Origin: Salinicola socius
GTDB taxonomy: Bacteria > Pseudomonadota > Gammaproteobacteria > Pseudomonadales > Halomonadaceae
NCBI RefSeq assembly: GCF_001937195.1
Contig: NZ_MSDO01000003.1
Coordinates: 62,001 to 126,000 of the forward strand
Direction: 5' to 3'
Length of the DNA: 64,000 bases
The translations under genes were made by a program, and so were the position numbers. The first letter of the stretch is position 1, and every line of letters starts with the position of its first letter. The notes under the pieces are model-generated. The model ran no database searches. It saw only the letters and a program-made list of their open reading frames with translations, and was not told the DNA's origin. Of the stretch, positions 10,640-58,737 are shown one piece after another.

Positions 10640-11599
10640 TTATCGCGAGTCTTCGTGCCGAGCCCGGTGGAGACGGGGGTTCAGCGTGTCGCGCAACCAA
10701 TCCCCCAGCAGGTTGATGACCAGCACTAACGCTACCAGCAACAGGCCCGGCAACAATGTGATCCACCAGGAGCCGGACTGCAGATAATCGAACCCGGATT
10801 TGATCAGTGAGCCCAGTGACGGTTCGGTCTCCGGCATACCCAGGCCCAGAAACGACAGCGCCGCCTCGGCCATGATGGCATTGGCGATCTGGACGGTGGA
10901 GAGCACGAAGATCGGTGCCAGGGCATTGGGCAGGATGTGGCGCCACATGATGCGATAATTCGAAAAGCCCAGCACGCGAGCGGCATCGACATACTCCTTC
11001 TGCTTTTCCGCCAGCACGCTGGCCCTGACGGTACGGGCGTACTGAGGCCATTCGCTCAAGCCGATGATCAGGATCAGGATCGCGACGCCGTAGTCGCCAT
11101 AGAACGCGCCGCCAAACGCGGCCTTGACCACCGCCCCGATGACGATCGCCATCATCAAGGTGGAGAACGACAGCTGGATATCGGCCATTCGCATCAGCAG
11201 AGTGTCGATCACTCCCCCGCGGTAGCCTGCGAGCAGACCCAGCGCCGTTCCCAGCAGCGATTGAACCAGCACCGCCCCGAAACCGATCGCAATCGACACC
11301 CGCGCGCCGTAAAGCATTGTCGAGAGCAGATCCCGCCCCTGCGCATCGGTCCCCAGCAGGTGAGCGGGGTCGCTTCCCGCTATCCACAGCGGCGGCAATT
11401 CGGAGTCGAGCAGGCTGATCTGAGCAAGATCGTAGGGATTGCTCGGCGCAAGCCATGGCGTGAGCAAAAGGCTGGCCATCATCGCCACGAACAGCGTCAT
11501 GCAGATCTGGGCCCGGCGATCTCGCTGCAGGCGGTAGAGGAAATAGGAGTCGCGAAAACGACGCCAGGTCGTTGGCGACGACGGATCCTGGATACTCAT
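10640..11599 (-). CDS. Peptide ABC transporter permease (OppC/DppC type)
   Basis: A 319-residue inner-membrane permease of the BPD transport family. The N-terminal OppC-type domain has one membrane segment (about residues 30-52). It is followed by LLGTDAQGRDLLSTMLYGAR, a signature of DppC/OppC proteins, and several more transmembrane helices. The EAA loop, which contacts the ATPases, is seen as DAARVLGFSNYRIMWRHILPN. ATG 11599 overlaps the stop of the other permease as ATGA, which fixes the start. Confidence 0.88.
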   Translation of the reverse strand: MSIQDPSSPTTWRRFRDSYFLYRLQRDRRAQICMTLFVAMMASLLLTPWLAPSNPYDLAQISLLDSELPPLWIAGSDPAHLLGTDAQGRDLLSTMLYGARVSIAIGFGAVLVQSLLGTALGLLAGYRGGVIDTLLMRMADIQLSFSTLMMAIVIGAVVKAAFGGAFYGDYGVAILILIIGLSEWPQYARTVRASVLAEKQKEYVDAARVLGFSNYRIMWRHILPNALAPIFVLSTVQIANAIMAEAALSFLGLGMPETEPSLGSLIKSGFDYLQSGSWWITLLPGLLLVALVLVINLLGDWLRDTLNPRLHRARHEDSR

Positions 11600-12642
11600 G
11601 CCACGCTCCGGGTCAATATCACTCGCGGATTCAGCAGCCGGTAAACCAGATCGACGAGAGTGTTGGTCACGACGAACATCAAACCGATCACCATCAGATA
11701 GGCCACGATCAGCGGCATATCGGCGCGTTCGATGGCATCCAGGAACATCAGCCCCGCGCCCGGCCACTGGAACACGGTCTCTGTCAGCAGGGTATAGGCC
11801 ACCAGCGTGCCGATCTGGACCCCGCCCAGGGTCACTACCGGCAGCAACGTGTTCTTCAGCGCATGCAGAAAATAGATGCGCGACGGCCGCAGCCCCCTGG
11901 CCTTGGCGTATTTCACGTAGTCAGATTCCAATACATCCAGCATCTCGGCATGAATCAGACGCACGAACAGGGGCAGCATGACGAATGCCAGCGACAGGGC
12001 AGGAAGTAGCAGATAGACGAGACCCTGCAGCGAGGCGAAATTGGTATACCAGACGCCCCAGACATGAACCGGATTGCCACGCCCGTAGGCCGGCATTCCC
12101 CCTTCGATGGAGAGAAGCTGATTGAGCCAGTTTCCCCATTGGGTGTCCGCCGGGAACAGCGTCACCTGCACGCCGATCGAGAAGAGCTGAATCAATACCA
12201 TGGCCGACAGAAATACCGGCACCGAGATGCCGAGCACGGACAGCCCCATCAGTGCTTTCGACGGCCAGCTGCGTGGACGGATGGCGCAGAAGACACCTAT
12301 CGGCACCGACAGCACGAGCGTGAGCAGCGCACTGGCCGCCACCAGCTCCAGGGTGGCGGGAAGATAGCGGGCGATCACGCTGAGCGCGGGTTCGTGGAAA
12401 AAGTAGGAGTTGCCGAAGTTCAGGCGCACGGCATTGCCCGCGAAATGCAGGTACTGAGCCCATAGCGGCTGATCCAGGCCAAGCGAGTGTCGCAACGTCG
12501 TCGATTCCGCTTCGGATGCCGTCGGCCCCAGCATCTGCTGCACGGGGTCCCCCAGCCCGCCCTGAATCGCAAAGCCGATCACGCTGATGACGAACATCAC
12601 CGCGAGCGCCTGGCATAGCCGCCGAATCAGAAACATGATCAT
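11596..12642 (-). CDS. Peptide ABC transporter permease (OppB/DppB type)
   Basis: A 348-residue permease of the DppB/OppB type. It begins MIMFLIRRLCQALAVMFVIS, the usual first helix of the family, and has the LGLDQPLWAQY segment and the EAA loop YVKYAKARGLRPSRIYFLHAL. The start at 12642 is set by an ATGA overlap with the upstream binding protein; an ATG six bases later is the alternative. It should form the translocation pore with the neighbouring OppC-type permease. Confidence 0.88.
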   Translation of the reverse strand: MIMFLIRRLCQALAVMFVISVIGFAIQGGLGDPVQQMLGPTASEAESTTLRHSLGLDQPLWAQYLHFAGNAVRLNFGNSYFFHEPALSVIARYLPATLELVAASALLTLVLSVPIGVFCAIRPRSWPSKALMGLSVLGISVPVFLSAMVLIQLFSIGVQVTLFPADTQWGNWLNQLLSIEGGMPAYGRGNPVHVWGVWYTNFASLQGLVYLLLPALSLAFVMLPLFVRLIHAEMLDVLESDYVKYAKARGLRPSRIYFLHALKNTLLPVVTLGGVQIGTLVAYTLLTETVFQWPGAGLMFLDAIERADMPLIVAYLMVIGLMFVVTNTLVDLVYRLLNPRVILTRSVA

Positions 12643-37165: not shown

Positions 37166-38554
<1,389 letters not shown>

Positions 38555-38558
<4 letters not shown>

Positions 38559-39811
38559 GGCTTTCTTCCATCCTGATCCTGGCTATGCTGACCCTCAGCG
38601 TGGCCTGCAACCTGATCGGCTGGCCGATCTGGCCGGCGGCGATACTGGCCTGGCTGGCAACGTTACGACTTTTCCGAACGCTGCCACGAACCGCGCGGCG
38701 GCAGGCCGGAACGCTATTTGCCGCCGGCCTGCTGCTATGGGGAGTCGCGCTGATTCGCGGAACCCCCTATCCCCTGCTGAACGCGCTGACCATCAACCAG
38801 TCGCTGCTGATGATGTTCGCCGGGGTCAGCTTTCTGACCATGGCCACACCCAGAGTCAGCAGCGACCACCAGCAGCCGGGGAGCATGGTCGGTACCATGC
38901 TGGGGGCGCATCTGTTCGGCGCGGCCATCAATCTTTCCGTGGTCTTTCTGTTCGGCGAACGCATGCAGCGTGACGGAAAACTGACGCGGTCGCAGGCGCT
39001 CATCGTCGGGCGTGGATTCACCGCCGCCGCGGCCTGGTCGCCGTTTTTCGTTGCGATGGGCGTGGCTCTGACCTACGCACCGGGGCTCGACTACTTGAGC
39101 CTGTTGCCCTGGGGACTTCTGGCGGCCGCGCTGCTTCTGATCCTCAACTGGATCGATGTCTGGCGATTGAAGGCCCCGTTCATCGGCTATCCCATCGAGA
39201 AAAGCGCACTACTAATGCCCTGCGCGCTGGCAGTCGTGGTGGTCACGCTGCATCTGCTCTCGCCGAGTCTTTCCATTCCACTGATCATCGCCATCGTTGC
39301 CCCGCTGTTCTCGTTCCTCCTGATGCCACGCGACAATCGGCGCGAGCGAATGCACCACCAGTTCACCCACGGATTGCAGCGCCTGGCGCCTCAATTCGCG
39401 CTGTTTTTGGGCGCTGGCGTCATCTCTACCGGACTGGCGGCGCTGCTGGCCAGTCTCCCCGACGGACTCGATTTGCCGATCGATCATTTCGGCCACTGGC
39501 ATGCCTGGTTCGCGCTCGGCCTGATCGTGGTTATCTCCTTTACCGGTATCCATCCGCTGATCGGCATTGCCACGCTGGCGCCGCTGATCGCCCCGCTGCA
39601 TCCTGACCCTACCCTGCTCGGCATGCTGTTCCTGATGTGCTGGGCGCTGGGAACCGGCAGCAGTCCGCTGTCCGGCAGCAATCTGGCCATCTGCGTGCGC
39701 TATCAGATTGCCGTTCGAGACATGCTGCGCTGGAATCTGCCCTACGCCGTTCTCGGCTGGGGCTGTTGCGGCGTCGTACTGGCGCTTCACGCCGCGCTAG
39801 GCTTTGTCTGA
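38555..39811 (+). CDS. Multi-pass membrane protein, unknown transporter type
   Basis: A 418-residue protein with about ten to twelve hydrophobic helices and few charges outside the loops. The C-terminal half has GIHPLIGIATLAPLIAPL and WALGTGSSPLSGSNLAICVRY, reminiscent of ion-transporter-superfamily permeases (DctM or CitMHS type), but I cannot place it in a named family. It overlaps the DUF2069 gene (ATGA). The last three residues (GFV) and the stop codon come from the end of a MITE-like element starting at 39801; without the element the reading would end ALA-stop. Confidence 0.65.
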
Positions 39812-48742: not shown

Positions 48743-49078
48743 ATGAATCATCTCGATCCAGAGACCCGCACCGAGCTCGAAGCGGCCGCGTTCCGGCGCC
48801 TGCTTCGCCATCTCGACGACAACAAGGACGTCCAGAACATCGACCTGATGATTCTGGCGGACTTCTGTCGCAACTGCCTGTCCAAGTGGCTGGTCAGCGC
48901 GGCCGAGACCCGCGGCACCGAGCTGGATTATGAAACGGCTCGCGAGTACGTCTACGGAATGCCCTACGCCGAGTGGAAAACCCACTATCAGGCGCCGGCG
49001 AGCAATGAACAGCTCGCCGCGCTGGAAGCGCGCCAGGCACGCAAGCGTGAAGCCAACGACTCAGAGGGGGCGTCATGA
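48743..49078 (+). CDS. DUF1244 protein
   Basis: A 111-residue DUF1244 (SMc04008-like) protein, recognised by AAAFRRLLRHLDDNKDVQNIDLMILADFCRNCLSKW and AREYVYGMPYAEWK. The C-X2-C pair lies in DFCRNCL. The function is not known. AGG precedes ATG 48743, and its stop overlaps the moaB start (ATGA), tying it to the molybdopterin genes. Confidence 0.87.
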   Translation: MNHLDPETRTELEAAAFRRLLRHLDDNKDVQNIDLMILADFCRNCLSKWLVSAAETRGTELDYETAREYVYGMPYAEWKTHYQAPASNEQLAALEARQARKREANDSEGAS

Positions 49079-49605
49079 ACGAAACGGCCATGATCCCGCT
49101 GTCGATCGCCGTGCTGACGATCTCGGACACCCGGGACGAGAGCAGCGACCGCTCAGGGCAGGCACTCATCGACGGCCTCGAGTCGGCCGGGCATCGCCTC
49201 GCCGAGAAGCGTATCGTGCCGGACGATATCTATCGGATTCGCGCCGTCGTCGCAGGGTGGATCGCCGATGCCGACGTACAGGTCGTGCTGACGACCGGCG
49301 GTACCGGCTTCACCGGGCGCGACGCTACGCCGGAAGCGATCGGACCGCTGCTCGACAAGCGCATCGAGGGCTTCGGCGAACTCTTTCGCCAGCTCTCGTT
49401 CGAGGAGATCGGCAGTTCTACCGTCCAGAGCCGCTGCCTCGGTGGGCTGGCCAACGCCACCGTCGTCTTCTGTCTGCCGGGTTCGACCGGCGCCTGCCGT
49501 ACAGGCTGGAAGCGCATACTCGAGGAGCAGCTGGACAGCCGCCATCGGCCGTGCAACTTCGCCAATCTGGTGATTCCCGAGCGAGGCACGCACATTCATG
49601 GTTGA
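49075..49605 (+). CDS. moaB: Molybdenum cofactor biosynthesis protein MoaB
   Basis: A 176-residue MogA/MoaB-type protein that adenylylates molybdopterin or supports molybdenum insertion. It has LTISDTRDESSDRSGQAL, the nucleotide-binding TTGGTGFTGRDATPEA and the CLPGSTGAC segment. It overlaps DUF1244 (ATGA) upstream and moeA by 8 nt downstream, so the three should be translated together. Confidence 0.9.
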   Translation: MNETAMIPLSIAVLTISDTRDESSDRSGQALIDGLESAGHRLAEKRIVPDDIYRIRAVVAGWIADADVQVVLTTGGTGFTGRDATPEAIGPLLDKRIEGFGELFRQLSFEEIGSSTVQSRCLGGLANATVVFCLPGSTGACRTGWKRILEEQLDSRHRPCNFANLVIPERGTHIHG

Positions 49606-50833
49606 GCCATCTCCTGCGGGCCAGTCCAGCGCCGCACGACCAACGAGTGAACTTCAGAGCGTCGAGCGTGCTCTGGAAGCGCTCCTCCACGGCGTCGACC
49701 GTCTCGACAGCGAGCGCATTGCCTGTCTCGACGCCGACGACCGAATCCTCGCGACCGACGTGCTGGCTGCCATCGACGTGCCGCCGGCCGACAACAGCGC
49801 CATGGATGGGTACGCCCTTGCCAGCGCAGATAGCGGCAAGCGCCTGCCGATTTCCCAGCGCATCCCCGCCGGTCAGCCCCCGCAGCCGCTTGCCCCCGGC
49901 ACGTGCGCCCGAATTTTCACCGGCAGCGAAATACCGCCCGGCGCGGATTGCGTGGCGATTCAGGAGAACGTCGAGCTGGATGGTGACAGTGCCATCGTTC
50001 CGACCATGCAAGTCGGCCAGAACGTGCGTCGTCGGGGGCTGGACGTCACCACGGGGCAACCACTGCTCGCCGTTGGCACGCGCCTTGGCGCCGCGGCGCT
50101 GGGCTTGCTGGCCGGGCAGGGTTTTTCGACGGTCGAGGTGGTCAAACGGCCCAGAGTGGCGCTGCTGCTCACCGGCGATGAGATCGTCGAACCCGGTCAG
50201 CCCCTGTGCCGAGGACAGATCTACAACAGCAACGGCCCGATGCTGGCGACGCTGATCCGACGCTTCGGCGGAGATCTGGTCAGTCAGATCAAGGTGGCCG
50301 ATGATTTCGACACCACGCGGGAGCGCCTGCGGGAAGCCGCGGCCCGGGCCGATGTCATCGTCACCACGGGCGGTGTCAGTGTCGGCGAGGAAGATCACGT
50401 CAAACCGGCGCTCGAGCAGCTTGGCGAACTCTCGCTGTGGCGCCTGGCGATGCAGCCGGGGAAACCGCTGGCACTGGGAACGATCGACAAGGCCCGACTG
50501 GTGGGCCTGCCCGGCAATCCGGTGTCGAGTTACGTCGGCGCCTGGCTCTATCTGCGGCCGCTGTTGGGGCGACTGCAGGGTTGCCGCGACAGGGAGTCGC
50601 TCCCGGTGGTCAAAGCCTAGGCACAATTCGAGACTCGCACTCAGGGGCGGCGCCACTACATGCGCGCCCATCTCGAGTTTCAGGGAGAGCGCGTCGTGGC
50701 AAGCGTCTACCCCGAGCAGAGTTCGGCGGTGTTGACCTCCTGCGCCGCGACCAATGCGTTTGCCGTGATCCCGGCCGGAAGCCATGTTCGCCCCGGCGAT
50801 CGCGTCGATTGTCTGTGGCTGCAGGGTCAATGA
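49598..50833 (+). pseudogene. moeA: Molybdopterin molybdenumtransferase MoeA, interrupted by an in-frame amber codon
   Basis: MoeA inserts molybdate into adenylylated molybdopterin. The first 340 codons contain NSAMDGYA, TGSEIPPGADCV, LLTGDEI, TTGGVSVGEEDHV, QPGKPLALG and GLPGNPVSS, that is domains I-III. TAG at 50618-50620 stops the frame. The same frame continues for 70 more codons to TGA 50831-50833, with QGRRHYMRAHLEFQGERVV and VIPAGSHVRPGDRVDCLWL, which is the missing domain IV. The total of about 411 codons is the normal MoeA length. The break is thus one point mutation, a sequencing error or stop-codon readthrough. A 340-residue product without domain IV may be made. Confidence 0.85.
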
Positions 50834-58528: not shown

Positions 58529-58599
58529 TGGACTTCATCCTTGCGTCGGTTCGACTATCGCCGGTGGGCAGGCGGCGTCGGGCGGCGTACAATCCCGGG

Positions 58600-58690
58600 C
58601 ACTGGATAGGGGTGCCCGCGCGACGGGCTGAGAGTGCGTTCATGCACAACCCTGGAACCTGAACCGGCTAGTACCGGCGGAGGAAATGCC
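58600..58690 (+). ncRNA. TPP riboswitch (THI element)
   Basis: The conserved parts occur in order: GGGGTGCC (from 58610), GGGCTGAGAG (58625-58634), ACCCTGGAACCTGAACCGG, then the closing GTACCGGCGGAGGAAATG. It precedes thiZ by about 48 nt. A short CCC...GGG pairing at 58719-58730 could mask the GGGAG ribosome binding site, which suggests control of translation. No intrinsic terminator is seen in the leader. Confidence 0.93.
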
Positions 58691-58737
58691 AGCTGTTCTC
58701 GCATGACTTCGCCCGTTTCCCCCTGATGGGAGTTGTC

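Follow-up and report, generated by a model that had tools for sequence, protein, structure and literature searches.

A private in-frame TAG separates domain IV from the only moeA found in the draft genome of Salinicola socius

In the halophilic bacterium Salinicola socius, moeA, whose product inserts molybdenum into its cofactor, is interrupted by a single in-frame stop codon. We consider it likely that this is a real nonsense (loss-of-function) allele of recent origin, in the single moeA that the genome search recovered. The event is an ordinary one and does not represent a new mechanism. The gene was analysed in a window of 64,000 nucleotides (C80:62001-126000), located on a contig of 261,529 bases, with moeA more than 110 kb away from both contig ends. 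The Salinicola genome is a draft of 4.17 Mb in 156 contigs, with a completeness of 100. The features of the locus, in window positions, are as follows.

49075..49605, + strand: moaB (MoaB/MogA-like), intact, overlapping the start of moeA (TIGR02667 and the open reading frame list)
49598..50617, + strand: moeA codons 1-340, domains I-III (Pfam MoeA_N and MoCF_biosynth; identity to congeners)
50453..50455, + strand: codon 286, Gln, at the site of E. coli MoeA K279 and Cnx1 K294 (molybdate entry)
50618..50620, + strand: in-frame TAG ending moeA, a sense codon in 17/17 congeners
50621..50833, + strand: codons 342-411, domain IV, plus the TGA at 50831-50833 (Pfam MoeA_C, 53.2 bits)

The TAG at 50618-50620 is in frame with the moeA ATG at 49598 and closes the gene after 340 codons. 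Past it, the same frame stays open for 70 codons, up to the TGA at 50831-50833. Both points had been read from the sequence in the earlier note and were confirmed here. The moeA ATG lies upstream of the moaB stop (49603-49605), so the overlap of the two genes described in that note is real, and moaB is intact, with 269 bits against NCBIfam TIGR02667 (cut-off 222). Before the TAG, Pfam searches found MoeA_N (PF03453, residues 21-175, 141 bits) and MoCF_biosynth (PF00994, residues 189-323, 110 bits), and domains I-II and III are thus present in the 340-residue product. MoeA_C (PF03454) was found only past the TAG (53.2 bits, cut-off 22.1, profile positions 10-70 of 72). This match begins at the sixth residue past the stop, which places the stop at roughly profile position 4, so the claim that it falls exactly before domain IV holds to within a few residues. 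The TAG interrupts the frame shared by domain IV and domains I-III, and the two parts are not joined. No frameshift had been seen in the downstream codons, in agreement with the 60 of 69 domain IV residues that are identical to the sister species G009, and likewise to G001. A profile search for a second moeA found none: the draft genome holds one MoeA_N and one MoeA_C match, and within the limits of the draft a second copy elsewhere was rejected.

The locus resembles that of known MoeA, the molybdopterin molybdotransferase (NF007960; E. coli, PDB 1fc5 and 1g8l), with the same order of domains I-II-III and then IV, and with moaB adjoining. The E. coli protein matched the intact S. halophyticus copy over residues 16-401 (E 4.7e-75). 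Unlike these, S. socius has a stop before domain IV, and Gln in place of Lys/Arg at the molybdate-entry position. The eukaryotic Mo-insertases, Cnx1 and the gephyrin E-domain, are homologous four-subdomain insertases, with K294, R369 and S400 of Cnx1 aligned to the S. socius protein. In contrast to them, S. socius MoeA has no G domain fusion and its domain IV lies behind the stop. NF007960 (cut-off 440 bits) was the top NCBIfam model for both the 340-residue product (325.7 bits) and the intact S. halophyticus MoeA (359.7 bits). Since the intact protein also scores below the cut-off, this threshold does not separate the two and was rejected as proof of loss.

All 17 other genomes of the genus that were searched have an unbroken moeA frame, with one match each. 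When the codon was compared in these relatives, the column of the TAG held a sense codon in 17/17. Amino acid identity to these congeners was 75-90% over residues 20-340, and in four of the 17 moeA naturally ends in TAG. The stop is private to the S. socius genome, with an intact orthologue in close relatives. An aligned MoeA without any stop and with domain IV covered was found in 109 relative loci. These are loci and not genomes, 29 from the relatives' genomes and 80 from named genomes, and they include duplicates: G003/S. halophyticus and G036/Halomonas sp. NO4, at the least, were counted two times, and a single MAG contributed two loci. Five members of the relatives' set of 58 had no moeA match and stand outside the comparison. 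No other strains of the same species were found in the genome collection, which possibly has no records very near the window.

Of 250 surveyed genomes of the family, Halomonadaceae, 241, S. socius included, matched moeA at E 1e-80. Among the matches listed, S. socius was alone in having an internal stop in moeA. A further nine family members had been flagged for stops, but these proved not to be inside the gene on realignment: seven had the stop at query positions 9-17, before the gene start, and two had no stop in the realigned gene. A stop in a distant MoeA-like match of G050 was also discarded, as it was not within the realigned part (residues 45-327). Nine of the 250 genomes had no MoeA match at E 1e-80 (G034, G062, G064, G110, G179, G180, G261, G263 and G266); these may represent further losses or diverged copies. 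In the literature on moeA premature stop codons and on Salinicola nitrate reduction, no title or abstract among those retrieved concerned the present case.

In the alignment, residues 286, 351 and 376 of S. socius MoeA correspond to K294, R369 and S400 of Cnx1. Work on Cnx1E assigns K294 and R369 roles in initial molybdate binding and places S400 among the active-site residues (PMC13262936). Residues 351 and 376 fall past the stop, so that a MoeA ending at residue 340 would have an incomplete active site. Because the lost domain carries residues aligned with those of the molybdate site in the plant protein, the 340-residue product is probably inactive. There is very little chance that it remains functional, either by itself or together with a domain IV fragment translated from its own start, even though its Pfam domains I-III are complete. 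The first in-frame ATG past the stop (50660, 13 codons downstream) is preceded, about 12 bases upstream, by an AGGGG run that is a candidate ribosome site, and could start a fragment of 57 residues. However, this fragment would begin after residue 351, the counterpart of the molybdate-binding R369, and a domain IV restart was rejected on that account. The uninterrupted MoeA of the 109 relative loci, spanning domain IV in each, also speaks against a working short or split form.

A second change lies ahead of the stop and had not been part of the first observation. Residue 286, which corresponds to the molybdate-entry residue (E. coli K279, Cnx1 K294), is Gln in S. socius MoeA and Arg in 17/17 congeners. 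The Lys or Arg that is absent here is found in 108 of the 109 relative loci. The sole exception, Pseudomonas sp. 21 (L118), has Gln in a MoeA without a stop, which is a point against the loss reading, although that genome has two MoeA_N matches. Gln also occupies this site in the sequence of one solved E. coli MoeA variant (PDB 2nro). In total, residues 20-340 carry 12 private replacements, and five of these affect sites that hardly vary in the congeners (at least 16/17 identical). The congeners L012, L015, L016, L018, L023 and L024, which carry 7 to 15 private replacements, had 0 to 3 at near-invariant sites, and the three most diverged ones (L019, L025 and L026; 19 to 36 private replacements) had 3 to 7. 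The earlier note had judged everything else at the locus to look functional. This stands for moaB and its overlap, but it is doubtful for moeA itself, because the private Gln286 replaces the conserved Lys/Arg of the molybdate site.

Amber suppression or readthrough, frequent enough to give full-length MoeA, had been another of the proposed readings. The conserved domain IV codons and the maintained Moco enzymes would suit it, but no CTA anticodon was present in the 37 tRNAs typed by ARAGORN, out of 39 matches of which the other two were contig-end fragments. An amber-suppressor tRNA was thus not found among the typed ones; Lys, His and Asp tRNAs were also not seen in the draft's set, which makes the tRNA test incomplete. 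The two tRNA fragments at contig ends in the S. socius draft indicate that tRNA arrays were probably broken in assembly. Among 46 comparable genes of the window, 5 also use TAG as their normal stop, and 0/17 congeners have a stop at this site, so it is no conserved recoding site. Suppression thus found no support, and we regard readthrough as highly improbable. A special form of it, in which the UAG at the domain III/IV junction would be decoded part-time, yielding short and full-length MoeA with readthrough setting molybdate insertion, is barely credible.

Changes private to S. socius were counted against G009, G003 and G017. In domain IV there were 8 silent and 3 replacement changes (binomial P 0.0012, with an assumed neutral replacement share of 0.75). 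Domain IV still bears the signature of purifying selection, and the observation that the codons downstream of the stop show no decay is borne out by these counts. They indicate that domain IV was translated during most of the S. socius branch. Before the stop, S. socius had 23 silent and 23 replacement changes, compared with 106 silent and 40 replacement changes for the other three. The replacement share is thus raised there (23/46 vs 40/146, p=0.0066, uncorrected and for one of 48 segments), the pattern that an earlier relaxation of selection on MoeA would produce. It fails multiple-test correction, and other segments reach p=0.016 to 0.027. A nine-species count of the same contrast was not significant (11/21 vs 28/87, p=0.13). 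For the whole of moeA p was 0.038, and for domain IV alone 0.48, in the opposite direction. The counts no more than hint that the constraint on MoeA may have been relaxed by the time the stop appeared.

The main rival to a real nonsense allele is a base-calling or assembly error in the draft, with an intact moeA in the living strain. We consider such an error unlikely, though clearly the one to reckon with: a single substitution suffices for the stop, the assembly is fragmented into its 156 contigs with several tRNA isoacceptors not found, and the other pathway genes examined are open. On the other hand, the private differences are spread along moeA without a cluster of odd ones near the stop, and poor local sequence quality was rejected for lack of such clustering. 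The separate change at residue 286 suggests weaker selection on moeA itself. Moreover, moeA was the only clearly disrupted conserved gene found in a comparison of the window with three congeners, which gave many flags, judged by eye. Most of the flags look like shadow or upstream-extended frames, since the frame of another congener over the same stretch is unbroken.

Three further features of the window were recorded. The stretch at 10670-12016, a possible second disrupted gene in that comparison, has one stop and matches a 459-codon frame of G003 and G017 (73% identity); it may be a shortened gene or a start-site difference. At 38172-39802, two adjacent genes are present in S. socius and G017, and one open frame of 523 codons in G009 and G003. 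A TPP riboswitch (RF00059, 64 bits) was detected at 58598-58702.

The genome search showed that moaA and moaE are single and open. Besides NuoG, which is not known to use molybdenum, the genome encodes five molybdopterin oxidoreductases, one of them with a selenocysteine TGA, and has four MoCoBD_2 places. Two formate dehydrogenases scored above NCBIfam cut-offs, one with an in-frame TGA, and two proteins were of the FdhF/YdeP type. One assimilatory-nitrate-reductase-like protein was below cut-offs and was named from its best models and its C-terminal BFD domain. The gene with the in-frame TGA encodes formate dehydrogenase-N alpha (L156:16747-19821, G000:C90). The same TGA is present in G009 and G003, and it falls where selenocysteine is expected in formate dehydrogenase-N; TIGR01553 covers the part past it. 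A tRNA-Sec match above cut-off was found at C65:11969-12060.

In none of eight genes (moaA, moaE, NuoG and five Moco enzymes) was there a significant excess of replacements on the S. socius branch, with two of the comparisons resting on two relatives only. The lowest p was 0.059 (moaA, slightly raised). The nitrate-reductase-like gene and two MoCoBD genes (too few close relatives) and the fourth MoCoBD place (C120) fell outside this set. Of the four readings that the earlier note listed without preferring one, a recent loss of MoeA is the best supported. A loss of the molybdoenzymes along with it is not: they remain, those with enough relatives for a comparison show no significant relaxation, and their joint loss was rejected because the genes are open and those compared are constrained. 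As the genome is still equipped for molybdenum use, the loss, if real, would be very recent.

A single-nonsense pseudogene of a biosynthetic gene has one in-frame stop and an otherwise conserved frame, and its relatives are intact. The S. socius moeA shares the one stop, the conserved rest of the frame and the intact relatives. Unlike a generic pseudogene, it stands in a genome that keeps the tested pathway genes and the enzymes they serve, so a loss would be very young or incomplete. Under normal decoding, translation would stop at the TAG and yield a 340-residue MoeA without domain IV, leaving codons 342-411 untranslated. The Moco-dependent enzymes would then be inactive, or reliant on high molybdate, which in some bacteria can partly make up for a defective moeA. 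Even before the stop, the replacement at residue 286 may have impaired MoeA. The event would be young, because the 70 codons downstream are constrained and no stop disrupts moaA, moaE or the molybdoenzyme genes. Against a loss, the lack of decay in the molybdoenzymes would suit a MoeA that is still active just as well as one lost very recently. On loss or dispensability of the function, the genome gives mixed signs: no second moeA was found, yet the Moco enzymes are retained.

If the nonsense allele is real, S. socius would be a natural moeA mutant at the first step of Moco loss, with its molybdoenzyme genes still whole. It would offer a chance to test how fast dependent enzymes decay after the loss of their cofactor, and whether MoeA without domain IV has residual activity. 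For annotation, the case is a warning against inferring active nitrate reductase or formate dehydrogenase from intact genes.
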